DNA of 64,000 nucleotides from Litoditis marina. Taxonomy: Eukaryota > Nematoda > Chromadorea > Rhabditida > Rhabditidae. The translations under genes and the position numbers were made by a program. This document shows, one piece after another, positions 17,314 to 64,000 of this stretch (positions are counted from its first letter, which is position 1; every line of letters starts with the position of its first letter). The stretch lies in contig CAXIWQ010000049.1 of NCBI GenBank assembly GCA_964036275.1, positions 100,520 through 164,519 of the forward strand. Reading direction: 5' to 3'. The notes below the pieces were generated by a model. The model was not told the origin of the DNA, searched no databases, and saw only the letters and a list, made by a program, of their open reading frames with translations.

Positions 17314-19150
17314 CTAAAACTTGACTTGTAATTTCAAAACCTTGCAAATATCAATTTCTGAAAGTCGTTTTTTGAATGACCTGAGCGATTTTAACCTGAG
17401 AATCGTACTATCGTGATTAGATAACATGTTTAACCACCTGGCTGTGCGTAATGCAAACGAATAATACCTCTGATTTACCTTTGTATTTTCGACATGAAAC
17501 GAATGACTACCTCTTCTACCATTGTGAAACCGATACTTGTATACTGAAGGGAATTTGAGAATACATGCTCCTTTAATGATTTTAAATGCCAAAGTAAGAT
17601 CAAATATAACTCTTCTGAATGCCAAACTATGTAAACCCAGCTTTTTGCATCTGACTTGGTACGATGGTAGTTCGAATGGATAATTTGGGTTTGGGAAACA
17701 TCTGTGATACACTACTCTGGTAAATAATTCTTGTACCTTTTCTATCTTCTTCGACTCCAACATCAAAAATGGGCTCCATATCTGACACCCAAACTTTACG
17801 ATTGGAAGGACATATGTGTTGTAACACCTCAACAAGATTTCGCTGTTTTTCACCGTTACTGTGCGCAGTAGTAGAGATAATTGGCACATGGCCTTTTTGT
17901 AACGCATATCAATGTTTGCGCGATGTGATAAAGTACTCGAAACTACAACACCCAAATCTCGGCAATCTGAAACCACATTTAGTAAAGTAGAATTAAGAAA
18001 ATAATTGGAATGAGGATTCTTTGCACCAAGATGAATTACATTACATTTTTCTACTGCTAAAGTGAGCTGCCAATTTTTCACCCAACGTGTAAATGAATCA
18101 ATAACCGTCTGAAATCGTGCCCGGGCAACTTTGTTCTCTTTTTCGAAAACAACAAATAATTTAATATCATCGGCAAATGCGTTAATATGAATATTTGGAT
18201 ACGAAGAAAGATTGAGATGAACATCATGAATGAATATTGAGAACAAAATGGGGCCAAGAACAGATCCTTGTGGAACACCAGATAATACTGAACGAGAATC
18301 AGAACAATTATTGTCCACACGTACGTGAAAAGAGCGGTCTTTCAAGAATGAAGAGAACCAACTTAGCAAGGGATCACCAACACCAATTGAATGCAACTTA
18401 TGAATGAGTTTCGGAATTGCTACTGTATCAAATGCTTTGGCAAAGTCAAAGTAAACGACATCAACACATTGTTTTGATGAAATTGCTCTCAACCAAACGT
18501 TGTGACAGGATAACAAATTATGAACTACCGAGCTTTTTTCTCGAAAACCGTATTGATAATCCGGAATAATTTTGTTCAACGAAAGGTATGGAATGAGAAT
18601 TGACTTAACAAGCCTTTCAAACGTTTTGGATGTTCCAGCAGAAAGAAATATGGGACGATAGGATGACACTTTTTCAATCGGTTTTCCTGGTTTGTGAATA
18701 GGTACTACATAGCAAAGTTTGTACAAAGTAGGGTAAATGTCCAATTTGAGTGAAATGTTGTAGATATATGAGAGGGGTGTAGAGAAGCTCTTAGCTGACT
18801 TTTTGAGAATAATTCGGGGTATGCCGTCAGAACAAATCGTAGTTGAGCTTTTCAACTTTCTGAGAGTCTTTTCGACTTGAGGAGGGAAAAACACAACATT
18901 TTCACCAGAAAGATTTGACATTAGAGTATTTGTTTGTGGCAAATTACCATCATCAGAAATAAACACAGAACAGAAGAAATCAGCGAAAACATCAGGTATA
19001 GCACAGCGGTCAGAGTGAGCATTTCCTTGTATATCTAAAATGAAGTTTGGAACAGTTTTTGGTGGCTTTGTTCTCGCAGCTATGTAAGAAAACAGGTCAC
19101 GGTTGTTCTTCGTACGAAAATGATTGATTTGCTGTGAATTCTCGTACTTT
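17314..19150 (-). pseudogene. LINE reverse transcriptase domain
   Basis: The longest frame starts at a GTG at 18966, but the same frame stays open upstream to about 19150 and continues as coherent protein (...NNRDLFSYIAARTKPPKT...), so the GTG is not the real start. Counting from 18966: YRPI at 103-106, motif A VYFDFAKAFD at 171-180 with the catalytic Asp, motif B SGVPQGSVLGP at 229-239, motif C AFADD at 263-267 with the catalytic Asp pair, and the thumb-like YVLPIVKFG block after it. It would copy element RNA into DNA at a nicked target. All catalytic residues remain, but the frame breaks at its upstream end near an A-run (about 19151-19157), where loss of one base shifts it out of frame with the linker. 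Confidence 0.92.
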
Positions 19151-19556
19151 TCAATTTATACTGTAAATCAGAACACGCCTTTTCATACAAACGAAAAACT
19201 GCTTGACTGAGCTGGCTCTTAGAGAACATGATATCACGATGTTTGAAAAGTTTACGCAAATATAGTGGGTATTTATCGAACGGAGATGATATGATTTTCA
19301 CTGGAACAGTGTAGGCAAAAATAGAATGTATGGCACTCGAAAACCGATGCATAAGATCGTCAACTGAGTTATAATCGGTGAAAAGTTCACACCAATTTAA
19401 ACTATTCACCAAATTATCGAATAATTCAGAGCTATATTTGCTAAAGACAGGATATGGGACTGATGAACAAATGTCGGTGCGCACTTGTAGTTTGAACATA
19501 GTCGATGAGTGATCAGAATTGAAAAGATGACAGCCATAAGATAAAGTTGAAATCAG
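19080..19556 (-). pseudogene. LINE endonuclease end and linker, out of frame
   Basis: This frame runs from the terminal SDHSS motif of the endonuclease (about 19509-19495) through the linker to the RT. SDH carries the catalytic His and its partner Asp of the exonuclease/endonuclease/phosphatase fold. An open frame is listed from 19499, but coherent protein reads in upstream (LISTLSYGCHLFNSDHSS). It ends in the wrong frame past the A-run near 19151, overlapping the true RT frame. Confidence 0.8.
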
Positions 19557-20060
19557 GTTATCATGCCATTAGACAGGACCCAATCGATTATTCGATTACT
19601 CGGCATTGTACTTTGTAGTGAAAATTGTTTGAGCGCAAGAGTGTCACATAATAATCCTACTCGGGTGCCCATTGGCGGAGTAAATAACTCAGTTGCCCAG
19701 TCAATATTGAAGTCACCACATAGAATAGTTGGGTAGGGAATCATAACAAGGTCAGATATCAGGTCACACAGAGATTCGACATTGGATGCGGCGGAGTTTG
19801 GAGGAAGGTAAATAACAACTATTCGGAGTTTGGTGCTGTGAAATTGAATATCAACACACAACAAATCGAAATTGCCAGTGTATGAAATGGCGACAGGTTG
19901 AACGTTAAAAGACTTCTTGAATATAGCAACAGGAATCGCATTCGCACCGGTTGGTTTTGCCATACGGTTTGAGGAAGTTTGCTCTCGAAAAGCGGGTATT
20001 TGAGAGGTTAGCATAACTTGATCAGAGTAAACGACATAGTCGCTTGGCTGATTTGCGGCG
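19553..20060 (-). pseudogene. LINE apurinic-type endonuclease domain, 5'-truncated
   Basis: The domain nicks target DNA to prime reverse transcription. Counting from an internal Met at 20014: VVIYLPPNS at 66-74 and ILCGDFNIDW at 97-106, the latter holding the metal-binding Asp and Asn of the fold. Protein-like sequence (SDYVVYSDQV) continues upstream of that Met, so it is not the start. The first conserved endonuclease strands (the N and ETWL-type motifs) are absent. A frameshift near 19556-19575 separates this part from its own SDH motif. Confidence 0.85.
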
Positions 20061-20434
20061 ATGGCGGCTTCCTTTTTGGTTTTACAAGGTCTTCACATTC
20101 TCATAGTGTGAACGTTATTCGAGATAGAGAACGGTTTGGACAAGTGTCTGCACTACGAAGTTTCACGCCGTCTACTAATAAGAATCAAATGAGCCAGAGC
20201 TAAGAGCGTTAAGGACAAATATTCCAGGCATAGTTGACGTCAACTGTATACTACGCCGGGCATAGTTGAAATTCATTTGGCCGTAGGTCAAAAGGGGGCT
20301 TTTGTAAAAAAAAAAATGAATCCAACCAAAACTACCCAAACTAGAGTATTCGTGTATTTTGGATAACCGTTGAATGGATATCAAGTTATGGAACTTTGGT
20401 TCGGCTCGTTTACGTGAGCGGATAAATGCCCGGC
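20061..20434. other. Intergenic DNA with GGCATAGTTG motifs and a perfect palindrome
   Basis: No gene is seen. GGCATAGTTG occurs at 20228 and 20259 and again at 20433. Between the first two lies the perfect 14-bp palindrome AGTTGACGTCAACT (20232-20245), containing GACGTC. The same GGCATAGTTG core recurs at 21501 and 21688. Confidence 0.5.
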
Positions 20435-48800: not shown

Positions 48801-51800
48801 GAAAACGACCATTCTAGCCCCTGTCTACATTTCGACCTCGTGACGTGGCAAAGTTACACGTTTTTCCACGTCGATGGTCGGAACCTCTCAAAATTGATTA
48901 GAATAGTTTTTGATATTTAGTCAGACATGTATGAAACGCTTACAGATATAATTTTCGCGAAAACGACCATTCTAGCCCCTGTCTACATTTCGACCTCGTG
49001 ACGTCGCAAAATTACACGTTTTTCCACGTCGATGGTCGGAACCTCTCAAATTGATTGGAACAGTTTTTGGTACTGAGTCAGAAATGTATGAAACTCTTAC
49101 AATTATAATTATCACGAAAACGACCATTCTAGCCCCTGTCTACATTTCTACTCCGTGACGTCGCAAAATTACACGTTTTTCCACGTCGATGGTCGGAACC
49201 TCTCAAAATTGATTGGAGTAGTTTTTGATACTTAGTCAGAGATGTATGAAACTCTTACAATAATAATTTTCGCGAAAACGACCATTCTAGCCCCTGTCTA
49301 CATTTCGACCTCGTGACGTGGCAAAATTACACGTTTTTCCACGTCGATGGTCGGAACCTCTCAAAATTGATTAGAATAGTTTTTGATATTTAGTCAGAAA
49401 TGTATGAAACTCTTACAATAATAATTTTCGCGAAAACGACCATTCTAGCCCTTGTCTACATTTCGAGCTCGTGACGTCGCAAAATTACACGTTTTTCCAC
49501 GTCGATGGTCGGAACCTCTCAAATTGATTGGAACAGTTTTTGGTGCTGAGTCGGAAATGTATGAAACTCTTACAATTATAATTTTCGCGAGAACGACCAT
49601 TCTAGCCCCTGTCTACATTTCTACTCCGTGACGTCGCAAAATTACACGTTTTTCCACGTCGATGGTCGGAACCTCTCAAAATTGATTGGAATAGTTTCTG
49701 ATACTCAGTCAGAAATGTATGAAACTCTTACAATTATAATTTTCACGAAAACGACCATTCTAGCCCCTGTCTACATTTCGACCTCGTGACGTGGCAAAAT
49801 TACACGTTTTTCCACGTCGATGGTCGGAACCTCTCAAAATTGATTAGAATAGTTTTTGATATTTAGTCAGAAATGTAATGAAACTCTTACAATAATAATT
49901 TTCGCGAAAACTACCATTCTAGCCCTTGTCTACATTTCGAGCTCGTGACGTGGCAAAATTACACGTTTTTTCACGTCGATGGTCGGAACTCTCAAAATTG
50001 ATTAGAATAGTTTTTGATATTTATTCAGAAATGTATGAAACTCTTACAATAGTAATTTTCGCGAAAACGACCATTCTAGCCCCCGTCTACATTTCGACTC
50101 CGTGACGTCGCAACATTACACGTTTTTCCACGTCGATGGTCGGAACCTCTCAAACTTGATTAGAATAGTTTCTGATATTTAGTCAGAAATGTATGAAACT
50201 CTTACAATAATAATTTTCGCGAAAACTACCATTCTAGCCCTTGTCTACATTTCGAGCTCGTGACGTGGCAAAATTACACGTTTTTCCACGTCGATGGTCG
50301 GAACCTCTCAAAATTGATTAGAATAGTTTTTGATATTTAGTCAGAAATGTATGAAACGCTTACAATTTAAATTTTCGCGAAAACTACCATTCTAGCCCCT
50401 GTCTACATTTCGACCTCGTGACGTGGCAAAATTACACGTTTTTCCACGTCGATGGTCGGAACCTCTCAAAATTGATTAGAATAGTTTTTGATATTTAGTC
50501 AGAAATGTATGAAACGCTTACAATTTAAATTTTCGCGAAAACTACCATTCTAGCCCCCGTCTACATTTCGACTCCGTGACGTCGCAACATTACACGTTTT
50601 TCCACGTCGATGGTCGGAACCTCTCAAACTTGATTAGAATAGTTTCTGATACTCAGTCAGAAATGTATGAAACTCTTACAATTATAATTTTCACGAAAAC
50701 GACCATTCTAGCCCCTGTCTACATTTCGACCTCGTGACGTGGCAAAATTACACGTTTTTCCACGTCGATGGTCGGAACCTCTCAAAATTGATTAGAATAG
50801 TTTTTGATATTTAGTCAGAAATGTATGAAACTCTTACAATAATAATTTTCGCGAAAACGACCATTCTAGCCCTTGTCTACATTTCGAGCTCGTGACGTCG
50901 CAAAATTACACGTTTTTCCACGTCGATGGTCGGAACCTCTCAAAATTGATTGGAACAGTTTTTGGTGCTGAGTCGGAAATGTATGAAACTCTTACAATTA
51001 TAATTTTCGCGAGAACGACCATTCTAGCCCCTGTCTACATTTCTACTCCGTGACGTCGCAAAATTACACGTTTTTCCACGTCGATGGTCGGAACCTCTCA
51101 AAATTGATTGGAATAGTTTCTGATACTCAGTCAGAAATGTATGAAACTCTTACAATTATAATTTTCACGAAAACGACCATTCTAGCCCCTGTCTACATTT
51201 CGACCTCGTGACGTGGCAAAATTACACGTTTTTCCACGTCGATGGTCGGAACCTCTCAAAATTGATTAGAATAGTTTTTGATATTTAGTCAGAAATGTAT
51301 GAAACTCTTACAATAATAATTTTCGCGAAAACTACCATTCTAGCCCTTGTCTACATTTCGAGCTCGTGACGTGGCAAAATTACACGTTTTTCCACGTCGA
51401 TGGTCGGAACCTCTCAAAATTGATTAAAATAGTTTTTGATATTTATTCAGAAATGTATGAAACTCTTACAATAGTAATTTTCGCGAAAACGACCATTCTA
51501 GCCCCCGTCTACATTTCGACTCCGTGACGTCGCAACATTACACGTTTTTCCACGTCGATGGTCGGAACCTCTCAAACTTGATTAGAATAGTTTCTGATAT
51601 TTAGTCAGAAATGTATGAAACTCTTACAATAATAATTTTCGCGAAAACTACCATTCTAGCCCTTGTCTACATTTCGAGCTCGTGACGTGGCAAAATTACA
51701 CGTTTTTCCACGTCGATGGTCGGAACCTCTCAAAATTGATTAGAATAGTTTTTGATATTTAGTCAGAAATGTATGAACGCTTACAATTTAAATTTTCGCG

Positions 51801-54800
51801 AAAACTACCATTCTAGCCCCCGTCTACATTTCGACTCCGTGACGTCGCAACATTACACGTTTTCCACGTCGATGGTCGGAACCTCTCAAACTTGATTAGA
51901 ATAGTTTCTGATACTCAGTCAGAAATGTATGAAACTCTTACAATTATAATTTTCACGAAAACGACCATTCTAGCCCCTGTCTACATTTCGAGCTCGTGAC
52001 GTGGCAAAATTACACGTTTTTCCACGTCGATGGTCGGAACCTCTCAAAATTGATTAAAATAGTTTTTGATATTTATTCAGAAATGTATGAAACTCTTACA
52101 ATAGTAATTTTCGCGAAAACGACCATTCTAGCCCCCGTCTACATTTCGACTCCGTGACGTCGCAACATTACACGTTTTTCCACGTCGATGGTCGGAACCT
52201 CTCAAACTTGATTAGAATAGTTTTTGATATTTAGTCAGAAATGTATGAAACGCTTACAATTTAAATTTTCGCGAAAACTACCATTCTAGCCCCTGTCTAC
52301 ATTTCGACCTCGTGACGTGGCAAAATTACACGTTTTTCCACGTCGATGGTCGGAACCTCTCAAATTGATTAGAATAGTTTTTGATATTTAGTCAGAAATG
52401 TATGAAACGCTTACAATTTAAATTTTCGCGAAAACTACCATTCTAGCCCCCGTCTACATTTCGACTCCGTGACGTCGCAACATTACACGTTTTTCCACGT
52501 CGATGGTCGGAACCTCTCAACTTGATTAGAATAGTTTGTGATACTCAGTCAGAAATGTATGAAACTCTTACAATTATAATTTTCACGAAAACGACCATTC
52601 TAGCCCCTGTCTACATTTCGACCTCGTGACGTGGCAAAATTACACGTTTTTCCACGTCGATGGTCGGAACCTCTCAAAATGATTAGAATAGTTTTTGATA
52701 TTTAGTCAGAAATGTATGAAACTCTTACAATAATAATTTTCGCGAAACGACCATTCTAGCCCTTGTCTACATTTCGAGCTCGTGACGTCGCAAAATTACA
52801 CGTTTTTCCACGTCGATGGTCGGAACCTCTCAAAATTGATTGGAACAGTTTTTGGTGCTGAGTCGGAAATGTATGAAACTCTTACAATTATAATTTTCGC
52901 GAGAACGACCATTCTAGCCCCTGTCTACATTTCTACTCCGTGACGTCGCAAAATTACACGTTTTTCCACGTCGATGGTCGGAACCTCTCAAAATTGATTG
53001 GAATAGTTTCTGATACTCAGTCAGAAATGTATGAAACTCTTACAATTATAATTTTCACGAAAACGACCATTCTAGCCCCTGTCTACATTTCGACCTCGTG
53101 ACGTGGCAAAATTACACGTTTTTCCACGTCGATGGTCGGAACCTCTCAAAATTGATTAGAATAGTTTTTGATATTTAGTCAGAAATGTATGAAACTCTTA
53201 CAATAATAATTTTCGCGAAAACTACCATTCTAGCCCTTGTCTACATTTCGAGCTCGTGACGTGGCAAAATTACACGTTTTTCCACGTCGATGGTCGGAAC
53301 CTCTCAAAATTGATTAAAATAGTTTTTGATATTTATTCAGAAATGTATGAAACTCTTACAATAGTAATTTTCGCGAAAACGACCATTCTAGCCCCCGTCT
53401 ACATTTCGACTCCGTGACGTCGCAACATTACACGTTTTTCCACGTCGATGGTCGGAACCTCTCAAACTTGATTAGAATAGTTTCTGATATTTAGTCAGAA
53501 ATGTATGAAACTCTTACAATTTAAATTTTCGCGAAAACTACCATTCTAGCCCCCGTCTACATTTCGACTCCGTGACGTCGCAACATTACACGTTTTTCCA
53601 CGTCGATGGTCGGAACCTCTCAAACTTGATTAGAATAGTTTGTGATACTCAGTCAGAAATGTATGAAACTCTTACAATTATAATTTTCACGAAAACGACC
53701 ATTCTAGCCCCTGTCTACATTTCGACCTCGTGACGTGGCAAAATTACACGTTTTTCCACGTCGATGGTCGGAACCTCTCAAAATTGATTAGAATAGTTTT
53801 TGATATTTAGTCAGAAATGTATGAAACTCTTACAATAATAATTTTCGCGAAAACGACCATTCTAGCCCTTGTCTACATTTCGAGCTCGTGACGTCGCAAA
53901 ATTACACGTTTTTCCACGTCGATGGTCGGAACCTCTCAAAATTGATTGGAACAGTTTTTGGTGCTGAGTCGGAAATGTATGAAACTCTTACAATTATAAT
54001 TTTCGCGAGAACGACCATTCTAGCCCTGTCTACATTTCTACTCCGTGACGTCGCAAAATTACACGTTTTTCCACGTCGATGGTCGGAACCTCTCAAAATT
54101 GATTGGAATAGTTTCTGATACTCAGTCAGAAATGTATGAAACTCTTACAATTATAATTTTCACGAAAACGACCATTCTAGCCCCTGTCTACATTTCGACC
54201 TCGTGACGTGGCAAAATTACACGTTTTTCCACGTCGATGGTCGGAACCTCTCAAAATTGATTAGAATAGTTTTTGATATTTAGTCAGAAATGTATGAAAC
54301 TCTTACAATAATAATTTTCGCGAAAACTACCATTCTAGCCCTTGTCTACATTTCGAGCTCGTGACGTGGCAAAATTACACGTTTTTCCACGTCGATGGTC
54401 GGAACCTCTCAAAATTGATTAAAATAGTTTTTGATATTTATTCAGAAATGTATGAAACTCTTACAATAGTAATTTTCGCGAAAACGACCATTCTAGCCCC
54501 GTCTACATTTCGACTCCGTGACGTCGCAACATTACACGTTTTTCCACGTCGATGGTCGGAACCTCTCAAACTTGATTAGAATAGTTTCTGATATTTAGTC
54601 AGAAATGTATGAAACTCTTACAATAATAATTTTCGCGAAAACTACCATTCTAGCCCTTGTCTACATTTCGAGCTCGTGACGTGGCAAAATTACACGTTTT
54701 TCCACGTCGATGGTCGGAACCTCTCAAAATTGATTAGAATAGTTTTTGATATTTAGTCAGAAATGTATGAAACGCTTACAATTTAAATTTTCGCGAAAAC

Positions 54801-56972
54801 TACCATTCTAGCCCCCGTCTACATTTCGACTCCGTGACGTCGCAACATTACACGTTTTTCCACGTCGATGGTCGGAACCTCTCAAACTTGATTAGAATAG
54901 TTTCTGATACTCAGTCAGAAATGTATGAAACTCTTACAATTATAATTTTCACGAAAACGACCATTCTAGCCCCTGTCTACATTTCGAGCTCAAAATTACA
55001 CGTTTTTCCACGTCGATGGTCGGAACCTCTCAAAATTGATTGGAATAGTTTCTGATACTCAGTCAGAAATGTATGAAACTCTTACAATTATAATTTTCAC
55101 GAAACGACCATTCTAGCCCCTGTCTACATTTCGACCTCGTGACGTGGCAAAATTACACGTTTTTCCACGTCGATGGTCGGAACCTCTCAAATTGATTAGA
55201 ATAGTTTTTGATATTTAGTCAGAAATGTATGAAACTCTTACAATAATAATTTTCGCGAAAACGACCATTCTAGCCCTTGTCTACATTTCGAGCTCGTGAC
55301 GTCGCAAAATTACACGTTTTTCCACGTCGATGGTCGGAACCTCTCAAAATTGATTGGAACAGTTTTTGGTGCTGAGTCGGAAATGTATGAAACTCTTACA
55401 ATTATAATTTTCGCGAGAACGACCATTCTAGCCCCTGTCTACATTTCTACTCCGTGACGTCGCAAAATTACACGTTTTTCCACGTCGATGGTCGGAACCT
55501 CTCAAAATTGATTGGAATAGTTTCTGATACTCAGTCAGAAATGTATGAAACTCTTACAATTATAATTTTCACGAAAACGACCATTCTAGCCCCTGTCTAC
55601 ATTTCGACCTCGTGACGTGGCAAAATTACACGTTTTTCCACGTCGATGGTCGGAACCTCTCAAAATTGATTAGAATAGTTTTTGATATTTAGTCAGAAAT
55701 GTATGAAACTCTTACAATAATAATTTTCGCGAAAACTACCATTCTAGCCCTTGTCTACATTTCGAGCTCGTGACGTCGCAAAATTACACGTTTTCCACGT
55801 CGATGGTCGGAACCTCTCAAAATTGATTGGAACAGTTTTTGGTGCTGAGTCGGAAATGTATGAAACTCTTACAATTATAATTTTCGCGAGAACGACCATT
55901 CTAGCCCCTGTCTACATTTCTACTCCGTGACGTCGCAAAATTACACGTTTTTCCACGTCGATGGTCGGAACCTCTCAAAATTGATTGGAGTAGTTTTTGA
56001 TACTTAGTCAGAGATGTATGAAACTCTTACAATAATAATTTTCGCGAAAACTACCATTCTAGCCCCTGTCTACATTTCGACCTCGTGAAGTCGCAAAATT
56101 ACACGTTTTTCCACGTCGATGGTCGGAACCTCTCAAAATTGATTGGAACAGTTTTTGGTGCTGAGTCGGAAATGTATGAAACTCTTACAATTATAATTTT
56201 CGCGAGAACGACCATTCTAGCCCCTGTCTACATTTCTACTCCGTGACGTCGCAAAATTACACGTTTTTCCACGTCGATGGTCGGAACCTCTCAAAATTGA
56301 TTGGAATAGTTTCTGATACTCAGTCAGAAATGTATGAAACTCTTACAATTATAATTTTCACGAAAACGACCATTCTAGCCCCTGTCTACATTTCGACCTC
56401 GTGACGTGGCAAAATTACACGTTTTTCCACGTCGATGGTCGGAACCTCTCAAAATTGATTAGAATAGTTTTTGATATTTAGTCAGAAATGTATGAAACTC
56501 TTACAATAATAATTTTCGCGAAAACGACCATTCTAGCCCTTGTCTACATTTCGAGCTCGTGACGTCGCAAAATTACACGTTTTTCCACCCACGTCGATGG
56601 TCGGAACCTCTCAAAATTGATTGGAACAGTTTTTGGTGCTGAGTCGGAAATGTATGAAACTCTTACAATTATAATTTTCGCGAGAACGACCATTCTAGCC
56701 CCTGTCTACATTTCTACTCCGTGACGTCGCAAAATTACACGTTTTTCCACGTCGATGGTCGGAACCTCTCAAAATTGATTGGAGTAGTTTTTGATACTTA
56801 GTCAGAGATGTATGAAACTCTTACAATAATAATTTTCGCGAAAACTACCATTCTAGCCCCTGTCTACATTTCGACCTCGTGACGTCGCAAAATTACACGT
56901 TTTTCCACGTCGATGGTCGGAACCTCTCAAAATTGATTGGAACAGTTTTTGGTGCTGAGTCGGAAATGTATG
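33858..56972 (-). repeat. 158-bp satellite array, reverse orientation (~146 monomers)
   Basis: The same monomer as in 2294-12960 appears as its reverse complement (anchor GGTCGGAACCTCTCAAAATT). The array starts inside a monomer at AACTTGATTAGAATAG and stops inside another at GAGTCGGAAATGTATGA against a GA-rich tract. Large blocks are duplicated: rare variants (an extra ATTTTTTGAT at 45259; a shortened GATATAAAGAACGACC at 45775) recur about 2537 bp later (47797, 48312), equal to 16 monomers. Open frames here are by-products of the repeat. Confidence 0.97.
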
Positions 56973-57590
56973 AGAGAAAGAGAGAGGATGAACAGAGAAA
57001 ATAAGAAGATGAGACAAAGCTCATGAACATCTATGACCAAGATAGAATGATAGTTTATGAAAGTTTCAGAGGAAACTGTCCGAAGAGGCCATTTTGGAGA
57101 AATATTTGGTGTTTGTAGCTTGTTTCCATAGCGCTTCGCTGCTAGTTTTTTATACAACTTCATATTACATTTTCACTCTTTCAAATATCACGAACCTTAG
57201 CTATACAATTCCGTTCATCCGTAGCATTGAATTGTAGTGGAAAACCGGCATGCTTATACAGCGCATGAAACACTGGCGAAGAGAAAACTGTTTCAAAAAG
57301 GCCACTAATTAGAGAAATAACCCTTATTATGAAATATATCAAAAACTTTAATTCAAAAAAAAATACTGTTTTTTCGAGGGTAAAGTGAGCGTTTTCCACA
57401 CGCAACCAAATGCAACCCGCTTGAATGTGTTAAAAACATTTGGTTGCATTTGGTTTAAAACAATTCCACGCTAGCAACCAGTTTGCTTCTCAAAAGTTTT
57501 CAAAAACAGGTTCACGTGATTCACGTGACCTCTGTTGTTCGCGGTGGGTTATTAAGGTATATGAATGTGGTGCAGAGACATAGAGAGTAT
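56973..57590. other. Unique DNA right of the satellite
   Basis: No gene is recognised. A TTCACGTGATTCACGTGAC phrase (57512-57530) repeats the CACGTG-rich style of the left flank at 1415-1825, so similar sequence borders both satellite blocks. Confidence 0.4.
57404..57455. repeat. 13-bp perfect inverted repeat
   Basis: AACCAAATGCAAC (57404-57416) and GTTGCATTTGGTT (57443-57455) are exact reverse complements with a 26-bp spacer. This predicts a hairpin of unknown role. Confidence 0.85.
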
Positions 57591-57720
57591 ATAGAGATAT
57601 ATATAGAGAGAGAGAGAGAGAGAAATAGAAGAGACAGGGAGAGAGAGATGGAAAGAGGGAGAGAGAGAGAGGAAGACAGAGAAAGAGACAGAGACAGAGA
57701 ATGATAGAGAAAGAGAGAAA
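57591..57720 (+). repeat. GA-rich simple repeat
   Basis: An imperfect (GA)n/(GAGACA)n tract, the first of several purine-rich blocks on this strand. Confidence 0.9.
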
Positions 57721-57990
57721 TTATCTGGCACTGAGCTGGCAACTGCAAGGTGTAATGTCCCTTGTGGTCAACATTATCACACTAGGGTCACCGAATATGA
57801 TAGTCGGCGCCTTGTCGATAACACCACATTTACACAGCAGAAAGAAATGGACAAAATCCTAATTAATAGTTACTAGAGAAAAGAGAGAAAACGAGAGCGA
57901 GAGAGGTTGGGAGGGACGGAGATATGAGAAAGTCACAGAGTGAGAGTAACACCCTCTTGATTCTCCCTTCAAATGTATGTCATCTACCAA
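57721..57990. other. Unique spacer between purine tracts
   Basis: About 270 bp of mixed sequence with no exon or repeat that I can support. Confidence 0.4.
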
Positions 57991-57991
57991 T

Positions 57992-58777
57992 AGAGAGAAA
58001 GAGAGAAAGAGAGAAAGAGAGAAAGAGAGAAAGAGAGAGAAAGAGGGAAGAGAGAAAGAGGAAGAGAGAAAGAGAGAAAGAGAGAAAGAGAGAAAGAGAG
58101 AAAGAGAGAGAAAGAAGAGAAAGAGAGAGAAAGAGGGAAAGAGAGAAAGAGAGAAAGAGGGAAAGAGAGAAAGAGAGAAAGAGAGAAAGAGAGAAAGAGA
58201 GAAAGAGAGAAAGAGAGAAAGAGAAGAGAGAAGAGAGAAAGAGAGAAAGAGAGAAAGAGAGAAAGAGAGAAAGAGAGAAAGAGAGAAAGAGAAGAGAAGA
58301 GAGAAAGAGAGAAAGAGAGAAAGAGAGAAAGAGAGAAAGAGAGAAAGAGAGAAAGAGAGAAAGAGAGAAAGAGAGAAAGAGAGAAAGAGAGAAAGAGAGA
58401 AAGAGAGAAAGAGAGAAAGAGAGAAAGAGAGAAGAGAGAGAAGAGAGAAAGAGAGAAAGAGAGAAAGAGAGAAAGAGAGAAAGAGAGAAAGAGAGAAAGA
58501 GAGAAAGAGAGAAAGAGAGAAAGAGGGAAAGAGAGAAAGAGGAGAAAGAGAGAGAGAAGAGAGAAAGAGGAGAAAGAGAGAAAGAGAGAAAGAGAGAAAG
58601 AGAGAAAGAGAGAAAGAGAGAAAGAGAGAAAGAGAGAAGAGAGAAAGAGAGAAAGAGAGAAAGAGAGAAAGAGAGAAAGAGAGAAAGAGAGAAAGAGAGG
58701 AAGAGAGAAAGAGAGAAAGAGAGAAAGAGAGAAAGAGAGAGAAAGAGAGAAAGAGAGAAAGAGAGAGAGGAGAGGGA
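57992..58777 (+). repeat. ~785-bp uninterrupted polypurine tract (GAGAAA)n
   Basis: By eye every base is A or G. The main unit is GAGAAA (six bases) with scattered GAGAGA, GAGGGA and one-base slips. Long Arg/Glu/Lys-only or Ser/Leu/Phe-only open frames on both strands result from the repeat and are not genes. Mirror-symmetric polypurine of this kind can form intramolecular triplexes. Confidence 0.97.
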
Positions 58778-58790
58778 ATAGGGGGAGAAA

Positions 58791-60647
58791 TACACTCTAA
58801 AGCGTACACTTCATTTGCATTCATTATCAACCTGGCTCGAGGTGGATGTGACTTTAATACTTGAACTTATATTGTTGATGTTGTCAATGTACTATTTATT
58901 CATTCTTACACAAAAAAGGCAAATTAGAGTAAATAAACTGAAAAATTTATAATAAAGTTTGTATTGTAATGTATTGAAATAAAAAGTGGTTGTTATCCGG
59001 AAATTTGCGTTTGTTTTAAGCGCTGATTAAATGCCAAATATTTGCCGAACAACACCATATATGAGAGAGGAAACACAGCTGACGAAATGGGGGGAAGAGA
59101 GAAAAAGAGAGAGAGAGAAAAGTAAGAGAGGAGGAAGAAGAGAGAGAGAAGGAAGAAGAGAGAGAGAAAGAAAAGAAAGAGAAGTGGTGAACAAAGGGTG
59201 AGAAAGGGAGAAAGAAGAGAGAAGACAGAAGAAGAAAGAAAGAAAAAGAGTGAGAGAGAAAGAGAGGGGTCGAGATGAAGAGAAAAGATAAGGAAGCGAG
59301 AGGGAGGAAAGGGAGTTTGCTTATACGTGCATACAAAACTGAACCTTCTAGCATACAAAACTGAACCTTCTAACGCTCATTCGGAAAACTACGAGCGTCA
59401 AAAATTAAAGTTTTATAGAAGTGAAATAGACGAATAATTTGCAAACTGTCAATTATTTGTCCTCTTGAAAACGGGCTAGTATTGTATAACCAATCAAACA
59501 GTAGTACAAAGTATATCCAGAGAAACAGTTGAGTGCGTCACACTTCTGGTGTTGGGGAGAAATGAGAAAAAAGTAATTAAACCTAGTAAAAGTAATTAAA
59601 AGTAAAAAGTAACCCTAGCGATAATTACCATAGAACAAAAAAAAGTGAAAAAATGAGAGAGAGCAGCAGAGAGACAAAAATTGAATGGAGGGGAAATGGA
59701 AAGATTGAGTAGAGAGAGAAGGAGCGTTGAATATAGAGAGAAAATGAGAAATAGAAGAGAAAACGAGTAAGCGAAAAGAGGAGGGTATGAAAACCGATTT
59801 TAAGTAACGAGTAGTTTGTTTCTTCAAAACTAAACTTTCTCATTTGAGGATTACGTTTGCGAACTTTAAAGTAGGTCTTGTGAAAAACAATAATTCATCT
59901 TTTCCAGATTACAGAAAACACAATAAAATGTAGATTAACAAATAATAGACTTTTTGTCATACATTAAATTTATCTCTTTGGCATTCGAACAATCAAATTG
60001 TACATTTGTTCCAATATTAGTAAAGTGACAGAAACAGTTGAGCGCGTCAATAATTTCCTCCTATTGAAGAGAAGATAAAAACAGTAAAAAAACAGAAAGA
60101 AACATAAATAATGAAAGAGAAACAGAGAAATAAAAAGAGAAGTAGAAGAGAGAGAGGAACGACCTCATTTTTTTTAGCTTTAAGAAGTGCAACCAGATCA
60201 AAATTCGCAAATATGAGAAGACTGATGAAACATTTGAGTGCCTGCGATATACAGTATTTCTACCAGTAAAATCGAAAGATACCATGAAAGTTAGAGCAAG
60301 AAAGAAAAAAAAAAGAAAAACAACGTTGAAAGAGAAATACAATAAGGATTAGGCAGGGAGATATTATATTGTATAATTTTACAAGCATTAAATTTATATT
60401 ATTATTAATATTCATTGTACTAAAAAGTGGTTGTTGTCCGGAAATTTGGGTTTGTTTTAAGCGCCGATTAAATGCCAAATATTTGCCGAACGACACCATA
60501 TGAGAGGGGAAACACAGCTGACGAAATGGGAAGAGAGAGAAAGGGAGAGAGAAAACAAAGAGGAGGAAGAAGAGAGAGAGAGAGAGAGAGAAAGATAGAG
60601 AAGAGAGAGAAGAAGAGAAGGGAATGAGAACTGGATGACGAATGAGC

Positions 60648-60680
<33 letters not shown>

Positions 60681-61560
60681 AGGGAAATAGAGAGGTGAAG
60701 AGAGGGAGGTGAAAAGTTCACAATTTGGAAACTCTCAATCATAGTTATTTCAAAGCTACGTATTGTATAACCAACAAAATAGTAGTATAAGTATTGTCAG
60801 AGAGATAGTTGAGTCCCCATTGTTGTGTTTAGCAGAAAAAAAGTAGGAAACAAAGATAGTTAGGTTGAAATAAAGAGGGTGGGACATATAGATGTCAGCA
60901 GAGAGCGAAAAAGCTAAATGGGGAGATGAAAGAAGAAACTTGCGAAGAGAGAAAGAGCGAAAGATAGATAGAGAGAAAGGAGAAGAAAAGAGCGAGACAG
61001 AGAAAGAAGAGAGTATGAAAAGGTATAGGTGTTTTGTTTTGCCGGTCAGTTTCTACAAAACTGCACCAACTTAAACCCATCTATGGAATTACCTCCGTCA
61101 TATTTAATGGAATCATTGTGATATTTTCATAAATTCATATTTCATGTTTCGTAGATGAGAGAACACAGGAAACATTAAAATTACAAAATATAGACTTTTC
61201 ATCACACATCAAGTATTCTCGCAAAGTAAAACTCGCAGCTTCGATTGTGCATCTAATCGAAGAGCTTTATAAGTAAAGCCACAGAAACAGTGGAGCGCGT
61301 CAATTATTTCCTCCTATTGAAGAGAAGATAAAAACAGTGAAAACAGAGAGAAACATAAATAATGAAAGAGAAAAGAGAAGTAGAAGAGAGACGGACGATT
61401 TTATTTTAAGTTATGGAAGTTCAACCAGATCAAATTTCGCAAATAGGAAAAGACTCATGTATACTTCGAATGCCTTCGATATACAGTATTTCTACCAGTA
61501 AAATCGAAAGGAAACATGAAATTTAGAGCGAAAAAGGAGACAAAAACCGAAAAACAACGT
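58791..61560 (+). repeat. Degenerate ~1.2-1.4-kb unit, about two copies, with purine tracts
   Basis: Several segment pairs recur in the same order: 58981-59100 with 60422-60540 (AAAAAGTGGTTGTTATCCGG...), 59450-59555 with 60735-60825 (TATTGTATAACCAA...), 60024-60115 with 61274-61370 (GAGCGCGTCAAT...CTCCTATTGAAGAGAAGA), and 60246-60310 with 61478-61545 (GATATACAGTATTTCTACCA). Each unit carries a GA-rich block (59085-59300, 60525-60720). No protein domain is seen. It may be a degraded non-coding element family. Confidence 0.7.
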
Positions 61561-62084
61561 GGAAAGGGAGAGCATGAGAGGATTAGGCAGAGAAATAGAA
61601 AGAGGGAACGAGAAGAGGGAAGAATAAAGAGAGAATAGGAACAGTGGAGAGAGGGATGGATAAGGAAAGAGAGTGAGAGAGCGGCTGTGTAGCCAGACAG
61701 TGAGAGACGGAGAGAAAAAGAAGAAAGAGAGAGGATACATGAGGGGTAGACGGTGAGAGAAGAAACAGAGAAAAAGAAAGGATAGAGAGGATGGAGATGG
61801 TAAGAGAGAAAACGGTGAGAGAAGAAACGGTGTTGGAGTGGGAGAGATACAGAGAGAGTGAGCAGACAATGAGAGAGAAAACGGCAGAGAGTGAGGGAAG
61901 AAACGGTGAGAGAGAGAGAGAGGGTAGAGACAGTGAGAGAGGAAACGGTGAGAGAGAGAAAACGGTGACATGAGGGGGACAGAGAGTGAGGGAATAAACG
62001 GTGAGAAAGAGAGAGGGTAGAGACAGTGAGAAATAAAATAGTGTGAGAGAGAGAAAGAGAATTAGACATAGAGAGAATATACAA
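61561..62084 (+). repeat. GA-rich minisatellite with GAAACGGTGAGAGA units
   Basis: From about 61735 to 62035 the phrase GAAACGGTGAGAGA recurs roughly ten times with small changes in a GA-rich background. Serine/leucine-rich frames on the minus strand are by-products. Confidence 0.75.
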
Positions 62085-62437
62085 ATACTAGGCAGACACT
62101 GACAGGGAAAACGATGATAGAGAGAAGAGAAAGAGGGTGCAGACAGAGAGAGAGGACCTGTCGTTGGCGCGTGTTTGCGTGGCGCGCAACACTACAAAAA
62201 CGCGCATAACTAGCAAAAAGCCGAATTGTACACACAATGGACGTGGAACGTGGGAAACGTACAGGAAGGAGGAGGGATTGTCTACTTTGATGTATGGGAG
62301 AGAGAGAGAGATTAATGAAAACATTTAAAAAGTTGGGGTTTATGTTAATTAACTATTTATATAATGAACGCTTAACTTAAAATATGTGAGAATCTTAAAT
62401 ACTGTCATTTGATGAAGTTAGTTATATTTAAAAACAA
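62085..62437. other. Unique DNA beside the ribozyme candidate
   Basis: A GC-rich phrase (TTGGCGCGTGTTTGCGTGG, about 62164-62182) is followed by AT-rich sequence. No gene is recognised. On the minus strand this lies just downstream of the predicted ribozyme. Confidence 0.4.
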
Positions 62438-62517
62438 GTGCAGTTCGTTTCGGCTCCGACTCTCTACGAAACTACACTGGCTAGCGGTCGAGCCTCATCA
62501 GGAGAGCCCGCTAGCCA
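62438..62517 (-). ncRNA. Hammerhead-type self-cleaving ribozyme, non-circularly permuted
   Basis: Minus strand, 5' to 3'. A 10-bp hairpin stem (62517-62508 with 62487-62478, TGGCTAGCGG/CCGCTAGCCA, perfect) encloses CTCTC, the core CTGATGA (62501-62495) and GGCTC (62494-62490). A second hairpin stem (62477-62466 with 62448-62438, 11 bp with one bulged U and one G-U) encloses A62465, GAGAG (62464-62460), TCG, GAGCC (62456-62452) and GAA (62451-62449). CTCTC pairs with GAGAG (stem I), GGCTC with GAGCC (stem II), and the second hairpin stem is stem III. All canonical hammerhead features follow: C3-U-G-A-U-G-A9, G10.1-C11.1, G12-A-A14, A15.1-U16.1, H17 = A. Cleavage is predicted between 62465 and 62464. 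The strand order is not a circular permutation of type I, II or III; the core forms by loop-loop pairing. Activity is inferred. Confidence 0.82.
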
Positions 62518-62847
62518 TAAATTTGGAATATATATTGAATTATTTATTTCTACAAATTATCAAAAAGAAACGTTGTTAAAATTCAACTAAGAGTAGCTAA
62601 TCTATTTTAATTAAATCTTACAGTTGTTATGTCCTATTTTAAAAGCTATCAGATTCTATAAATGTAAAGCAAAACTACGGTCGAATGAAAAACTAATGTT
62701 TGTCCTTTCTATTTATATCCACATTTGCGCGGTTTGTTGTTGTTTTTTCATCGACCTTATCAATAGTAGCTTCCCATGAGCAAGACTGAGGTAACAATGT
62801 CTGGTGTGTTCTAAGAAACGGTGGTATTGGTGGGAAACAAACACATT
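62518..62847. other. Unique AT-rich DNA upstream (minus strand) of the ribozyme
   Basis: No exon, TIR or repeat is recognised. The host transcript of the ribozyme cannot be identified from this stretch. Confidence 0.35.
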
Positions 62848-62870
62848 AGATAAAAGAGGGAGAGAGAGAG

Positions 62871-62965
<95 letters not shown>

Positions 62966-63157
62966 GCGACAGGGGAGAGAGGGGGAGGAAGAAGAAGGAG
63001 GTGGAGAGGCGGACAAGTGAGAGGGAGCAGTGAAAGAGAGAGGCATTTGCCTGTTAATCATGTCAGAACACCCATATTCCGTAGATTGTCTAATCTCTCT
63101 CTCTCTCTCTGTTTCTCTCTCTATTTCGTTCTCTCTCTCTCTCTCTCTCCCTCTTTA
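62848..63157. repeat. (GA)n and (CT)n tracts facing each other
   Basis: A (GA)n tract at 62848-62962 is followed by about 125 bp of mixed sequence and a (CT)n tract at 63089-63157. The two tracts are complementary, so a single strand can fold back over tens of base pairs. Confidence 0.92.
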
Positions 63158-64000
63158 GCGACGCACAACTTTTCCCATCACTCAAATGTTTCATCGGAAT
63201 ATTCATGGGAGGGTGTTAACAATCCGTGAGAGCAAAGTTTCGGCTGCTTAGATCTACTGCGACTGAGATAATTCAAAAACAAGAGTAAACCGTTTTTCTC
63301 AGTGTCATAGGGAAGTTTGAAATTTCGATTCAAGTTGATCATTTTTGTAAGAAAGATTATTATTCTCTCTCAAACTTACAAATATGATATGTTTCTCAGT
63401 GGAATATCAGTTATAGGGTACGCTCTTTCGGAGCCAGTCGATGCGGTGTTTGTTGCACTTTCCCGCTGGGTTTGTAGTTTGATCACCGTTACGTTGTGTA
63501 GTTTGATCACTGTGGTCGAACATTATGATGTGTGAAACTACAAAGGTCAGAAGTCACTCCTATTATGTTGGGTCGGAATGAACTGCAGTTTTGTTGAGAT
63601 ACATATAGTTTCCCCACTGTTAACGAAAACTGAAACTTTTATTGTAAGATTTTTCGAGGCTTGTGATAAAATAGGCCAGATTTGATTTCATTTCATTCTT
63701 AAAGAAAATCCTCGATATTTTGGAAAACAATAACTATTTTACCAACAATTGGTTTAGTTTCCATTTAAGCGTGCCCCACTGTCGCACGCATTTTACTTAA
63801 TAGATGGCATATTGGTTTCGGTGGTTGGATGTCCGCATGGCAAAGATTGAATAATTGGAAAACAAAATTCACAGTTGTTATTATTATTGCTGCTCAATGA
63901 AGTTAGCACACTCAATAATTGATGTTGTTCGATTCTTTTCATTATTGTTATTGTTTGATTGAAAAAGTTTACTTATCAAGTTATAATACCTGAAAGTTCT
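63158..64000. other. Unique AT-rich DNA to window end
   Basis: No gene is recognised; open frames are short and unsupported. It includes the foldback at 63471-63544. Confidence 0.35.
63471..63544. repeat. Small foldback with TTTGTAGTTTGATCAC ends
   Basis: TTTGTAGTTTGATCAC (63471-63486) pairs imperfectly with GTGTGAAACTACAAA (63530-63544), and TGTAGTTTGATCAC is also repeated directly at 63495-63508. The ends resemble those of the foldback at 33346-33416. Confidence 0.6.

Follow-up and report, generated by a model that had tools for sequence, protein, structure and literature searches.

Near one end of a 64,000-nucleotide stretch of Litoditis marina contig CAXIWQ010000049.1, referred to below as the window, lies a hammerhead ribozyme core whose strands follow a non-circular order. 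It is very probable that the surrounding sequence is a 5'-truncated copy of a Penelope-like retroelement, likely of the Naiad type, and that close to its 3' end this copy carries a type-CSG hammerhead predicted to cut the element RNA between positions 62465 and 62464. The permutation itself has already been published, and its home in a retroelement is new. The initial annotation of the window described the ribozyme without a carrier; the high-copy Penelope-like retroelement was added by the follow-up analysis reported here, in which the window's own genome (262 Mb, 522 contigs) was searched and from which all evidence derives.

Hammerheads can be split into three blocks, C, G and S, and natural orders of these blocks that are not circular have been reported (Eckert et al., 2023, PMC10085705). 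On the minus strand of the window the order is C (CUGANGA), S (the cleavage site) and G (GAA). The first half of the core, from 62516 onward, reads GGCUAGCGG-G-CUCUC-CUGAUGA-GGCUC-GA-CCGCUAGCC, and the second half, running to 62437, reads AGUGUAGUUUCGU-A-GAGAG-UCG-GAGCC-GAA-ACGAACUGCACU (Table 1). The conserved hammerhead nucleotides, the A15.1-U16.1 pair and a non-G nucleotide at H17 are all present. The loop of the first hairpin contains the C block and single strands of stems I and II, and the loop of the stem III hairpin contains the cleavage site, the partner strands of both stems and GAA. Both outer hairpins appear in the minimum-energy fold, and the identical 80-nt core in locus L009 reaches a z-score of -3.1; stems I and II cross and cannot be drawn by the folding program used. 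By block order, nucleotides and helices the window core is a type-CSG hammerhead, with cleavage predicted by analogy. The coordinates of the core and the cut position given in the initial annotation were confirmed on reading the sequence. Its helices also stood, with lengths revised: stem III comprises 12 bp with one bulged U rather than 11 bp, and the fourth helix 9 bp rather than 10 bp, since a tenth pair (62517-62478) would take A62478, which is also used by stem III.

The same layout recurs in divergent elements of the genome. The element protein gave 58 matches, with identities from 100% down to 34%, and 3' flanks were sampled from 12 divergent copies and then from 8 more, the 20 lying at 34-49% protein identity. 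When the first 12 flanks were scanned for blocks in any order (score of at least 13), CSG and no other order was found in six. After those misses the descriptor was widened by allowing an insert before stem II and demanding the fourth helix, and in this form it matched 11 of the 12 (all except L054). Left unchanged, it matched six of the eight flanks in the second batch, the misses being L101 and L106, the latter with a protein match that ends at residue 554. Among the six, helix sets already known recur in four, and those of L099 and L103 are new. In all, 17 of the 20 flanks were matched, each on the coding strand, and the opposite strands of the 20 flanks gave zero CSG descriptor matches. 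Some helix sets carry a 1-nt insert before stem II.

That a chance hammerhead-like pattern has been picked out of a repeat-rich genome is barely credible. GA/CT repeats abound in the window, and the window family has a stem I that itself consists of GA/CT; other families, however, show this layout at the same place with stems of other sequence. Shuffles of the first 12 loci, scanned on one strand (n = 120,384), gave 249 matches of any kind, 10 of them at a score of at least 14, and only 3 with both this score and a fourth helix of at least 6 pairs, limits within which all 17 real matches fall. In 12.2 Mb of sequence made by dinucleotide shuffling of twelve related loci, the any-order descriptor matched three sequences, none in CSG order. 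The second batch, in which six of eight flanks were found with the descriptor fixed beforehand and two brought new helix sets, largely refutes chance. Over both strands of the window the any-order descriptor (score of at least 13) gives a single match, which is this core. A looser CSG descriptor gave one further weak match there (score 13, 11-nt insert), which is taken as chance.

The helices also covary. The 18 matches (17 plus the window family) reduce to 12 distinct helix sets, with only single-base differences among L055, L056 and L057. Since MAFFT and model alignments of several families lost the stem register, pairing was counted on blocks taken from each sequence; a first count covered nine families with blocks cut by hand, and a second used automatic output only. 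Over the 12 sets, 59 of 60 cells are paired in stem I, 58 of 60 in stem II, 60 of 60 in the innermost five pairs of stem III and 72 of 72 in the fourth helix. Changes on both sides of a pair occur at 5/5 positions in stem I, 4/5 in stem II, 4/5 in stem III and 6/6 in the fourth helix. When partner strands were re-dealt among the sets, the observed pairing was reached in none of 50,000 trials for any helix. Only G10.1-C11.1 and A15.1-U16.1 are invariant, and of these the descriptor requires A15.1-U16.1. Every set has A or C at H17; in relatives the descriptor also demands the letters of CUGANGA, GAAA and U16.1-H17. A covariance model built from seven members, with L103 left out, finds L103 at 55.6 bits (E = 2e-11). 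It also finds two further divergent copies, L016:8457-8535 (minus strand) and L010:1822-1902 (plus strand), both in flanks fetched for other reasons, the L010 copy appearing decayed in stem III. Within this one genome, the descriptor and covariance searches that the initial annotation had called for returned both recurrence and compensatory changes in all four helices. The same results uphold its two structural claims, namely a hammerhead core in non-circular order and loop-loop stems I and II between two hairpins.

The carrier was identified through longer copies. The window copy matches L009:1672-2224 at 99.6% over 553 columns. The full element is about 4.34 kb long, and two pairs of copies stand head-to-tail at a spacing of 4,344 bp. 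At least 40 copies are present in the genome (40 scored among 102 candidates). In a comparison of 20 loci the 5' ends vary, and the copies share a nearly common 3' end 133 nt beyond the ribozyme, with L014 ending short of it. The 5' junctions, judged by eye, are CT-rich in 16 of 18 printed, a bias towards insertion in microsatellites; L017 is not CT-rich, L016 has no clean boundary, and L023 and L024 share one flank. In longer copies a GIY-YIG endonuclease lies ahead of the reverse transcriptase (RT) (Pfam E = 2e-5). It was matched there in protein P0001 and in four of five other open reading frames (ORFs) examined, with no match in that of L063. A CxC motif is invariant in five aligned proteins, and YMDD stands in the RT part, which Pfam supports weakly (RVT_1 E = 0.019 in P0002 and L061). 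The reading frame of L009 is broken near YMDD, and sister copies are open for 985 aa.

RT and GIY-YIG in one ORF, 5' truncation and tandem copies are features of Penelope-like elements; GIY-YIG before RT together with a CxC linker motif is what marks Naiad. By these features of its protein sequence, the element is likely a Naiad-type Penelope-like element. Elsewhere, viral contigs searched with the element protein gave 11 loci in which similarity is confined to the GIY-YIG stretch, prokaryote contigs gave no relatives, and the protein database returned one near-identical fragment, together with an element in which the endonuclease follows the RT and whose GIY-YIG and RT matches lie just below the Pfam cut-offs.

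Several observations weigh against a working ribozyme carried by these elements. The evidence stems from a single genome, and in the viral and prokaryote contigs and the protein database searched, the same architecture was found only as a near-identical fragment. The motif is absent from three of the 20 flanks. Because the descriptor demands pairing and so favours paired helices, the covariation counts are in part a product of selection; the fairer statistic is the rate of detection relative to shuffles. At E = 1 or better the covariance model misses the insert-bearing families and gives the short families 9-13 bits or nothing, and the core of L056 folds no better than shuffles (z = -0.94). 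In the sub-clade of L052, L053, L100 and L099 an insert of 37-39 nt splits the core, and the predicted fold pairs core nucleotides. Within the window family, a C-U mismatch interrupts stem I in 15 of the 40 copies aligned, and the older copy L039 has a G at position 17. Finally, all 40 scored copies, found with a query spanning the site, carry the site uncut, and of 12 copies newly fetched (40 of 111 candidates scored) none has its start exactly at the predicted cut, two of them starting 3-4 nt before it.

The last two results, taken together, indicate that inserted RNA is often uncut at this site, and they favour an unlikely alternative, in which the RNA structure is conserved but does not cleave in life and serves as a folded handle, for example for RT binding or for the start of complementary DNA synthesis near the 3' end. 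The core does end 133 nt before the insertion end. For another Penelope-like element, unprocessed RNA is described as the main substrate in vitro and hammerhead mutants as without effect on insertion there (PMC11167929). Nevertheless, the invariant positions are the catalytic ones, including the G-C pair 10.1-11.1, and H17 is restricted to A or C; moreover, both published CSG RNAs cleave in vitro at the homologous site (PMC10085705). For the window family, sequence, layout, covariation and element anatomy are observed, and ribozyme cleavage and its role are inferred. A separate observation concerns the insertions L087 and L089, which share a common start 3-4 nt before the predicted cut, beside CT-rich DNA.

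It is highly improbable that an ordinary hammerhead, or another known ribozyme, has been wrongly divided into blocks. The Rfam model Hammerhead_3 scores L050 at 26 bits against a cut-off of 48.5, and no Rfam hammerhead reaches threshold in window positions 50000-64000 or in the first 12 flanks; in that part of the window the hammerhead models return nothing up to E = 10. The any-order scan at a score of at least 13 finds CSG alone in these loci, and the stem strands cross as I3'-II5'-I5'-II3', which is impossible in type I, II or III order. A circularly ordered hammerhead of types I-III was accordingly rejected on the CSG order and the sub-threshold Rfam scores in the 12 flanks. A pattern scan of viral contigs gave 12 matches, none of them CSG by descriptor. 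One viral contig, L068 (IMGVR_UViG_3300035336_000091), contains several circular-order hammerhead-like matches in orders SCG and GSC.

If the type-CSG hammerhead acts as predicted, its two hairpins would meet through their loops, and this kissing would form stems I and II. The first hairpin would offer CUGAUGA and one strand of each stem, and the second the site, GAA and the strands that complete the stems. At their outer ends, stems I and II may be kept close by the fourth helix and the 3-nt linker, in place of the loop-loop contacts of ordinary hammerheads. In the life of the element the ribozyme would cut tandem transcripts into unit-length RNAs. This role is likely because two pairs of copies stand head-to-tail and because ribozymes also lie upstream of the gene in L059 and L062. 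The ribozyme may occupy the pseudo-LTR (pseudo-long terminal repeat) position, where other Penelope-like elements carry type-I hammerheads.

Sequence variation among the copies deserves separate mention. In 15 of the 40 window-family copies (L025, L029, L031, L033-L042, L044 and L045) three changes in stem I and the linker lie exactly 3 nt apart. One of them is the C-U mismatch of stem I; in 13 of the 15 another yields an A-U pair through an opposite C-to-U change. Compared with a young copy, 15 older copies of the family have identities of 0.94 in the ribozyme, 0.88 upstream and 0.81 downstream. The trend is as expected for a conserved ribozyme, but it is given little weight because the ribozyme itself served as the query that retrieved these copies. 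In the insert-bearing sub-clade (L052:759-802, with L053, L100 and L099) the insert lies in the first hairpin between A9 and stem II. In the predicted fold a hairpin of the UGAxUC/GAUUCA type overlaps core nucleotides there, and three of the four members also pair CUG with a CAG ahead of stem II, which would compete with the catalytic fold. This fold is possibly an off state of the ribozyme. Downstream of the ribozyme in L048, a tRNA-like sequence lies on the element strand (L048:327-409, minus strand; Rfam tRNA, 60.6 bits).

Table 1. Positions of the retroelement copy and of the parts of its hammerhead core in the window.
Feature	Position	Strand	Basis
5'-truncated retroelement copy, its 3' 552 bp, with (CT)n/(GA)n microsatellite on both sides	62304..62855	-	match to L009
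Type-CSG (non-circularly permuted) hammerhead core, 80 nt	62437..62516	-	sequence, descriptors, covariation over 12 helix sets
Fourth helix, 5' strand GGCUAGCGG, tying stems I and II	62508..62516	-	pairs with 62487-62479; in minimum-energy fold
Stem I, 3' strand CUCUC, in first hairpin loop	62502..62506	-	pairs with 62464-62460
Catalytic block C, CUGAUGA	62495..62501	-	sequence; CUGAUGA or CUGAAGA in 12 helix sets
Stem II, 5' strand GGCUC	62490..62494	-	pairs with 62456-62452
Fourth helix, 3' strand CCGCUAGCC	62479..62487	-	sequence, minimum-energy fold, covariation
Stem III, 5' strand AGUGUAGUUUCGU, one bulged U, ending in U16.1	62466..62478	-	pairs with 62448-62437
A17, nucleotide 5' of the predicted cut (62465/62464)	62465	-	analogy with hammerheads and published CSG sites
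Stem I, 5' strand GAGAG, in second hairpin loop	62460..62464	-	sequence, covariation
Linker UCG, 3 nt	62457..62459	-	sequence
Stem II, 3' strand GAGCC, after the UCG linker	62452..62456	-	sequence, covariation
Block G: GAA (62451-62449) and stem III 3' strand ACGAACUGCACU (62448-62437)	62437..62451	-	sequence, covariation

Elsewhere in the window, positions 17314-20092 (minus strand) hold remains of a retrotransposon of the long interspersed nuclear element type, with matches to reverse transcriptase (RVT_1, E = 1.7e-33) and, weakly, to an endonuclease, which lie in separate frames. The SL1 spliced leader has 765 exact matches genome-wide, in keeping with a nematode host, and contig C1 carries a tandem SL1 array at 64508-90920 with a period of about 1,367 bp. 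Runs of TTAGGC gave 36 matches in the genome, none at contig ends among those listed, and runs of TTAGGG were searched for in the genome and not found.

Type-I minimal hammerheads are reportedly present in Penelope-like elements, as Cervera and de la Pena are said to have found in 2014. Naiad elements, reportedly described by Craig and colleagues in 2021, are said to combine an N-terminal GIY-YIG, a CxC motif, RT, tandem copies and microsatellite insertion, and they are not known to have canonical hammerhead motifs. The window family has these traits in common with Naiad, but carries a non-circularly permuted hammerhead. This would explain why hammerheads are not known from Penelope-like elements with an N-terminal endonuclease, unlike their relatives. 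The entire Naiad branch may have the CSG hammerhead as its standing ribozyme, scrambled and so missed by the usual searches, with a switch-like core insert in one sub-branch; this is a tentative proposal to which we give slightly less than even credence. More generally, CSG hammerheads can now be assigned to a carrier element and a likely animal host and show strong covariation, which makes their biology testable, and ribozyme surveys that assume circular order overlook recurrent RNAs.

Natural non-circular permutations were mentioned in the initial annotation as reported only recently, and the form in the window corresponds to type CSG of Eckert, Friedrich, Weinberg and Weinberg (2023, PMC10085705). 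In that paper, type SGC comprises 583 predicted sequences (HRIMA-1 and variants), type CSG two metagenome sequences with kobs of 0.004 and 0.026 per min, and type GCS one sequence of unclear relevance. CSG is known there from metagenomes only, and its covariation is called modest. Among the papers listed in literature searches, judged by title and abstract opening, none placed the CSG form in a named organism or Penelope-like element. The window core resembles the published type in its C-S-G order, its conserved core and its stems I-III, with a further helix between I and II, and its 80 nt are close to the 77-78 nt of the published test RNAs. It differs in that 12 helix sets occur in retroelements of one genome, CSG-1 and CSG-2 being compared here by their description. 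Type SGC (HRIMA-1) is likewise non-circular and has both a short linker and a helix between stems I and II, but its order is S-G-C. The type-I hammerheads of Penelope-like elements likewise lie in the repeated non-coding end (pseudo-LTR) of tandem GIY-YIG retroelements (PMC11167929, PMC7229834). Their carriers have the endonuclease behind the RT, whereas in the window family the endonuclease comes before the RT, the block order is CSG and stem III has at least five pairs.
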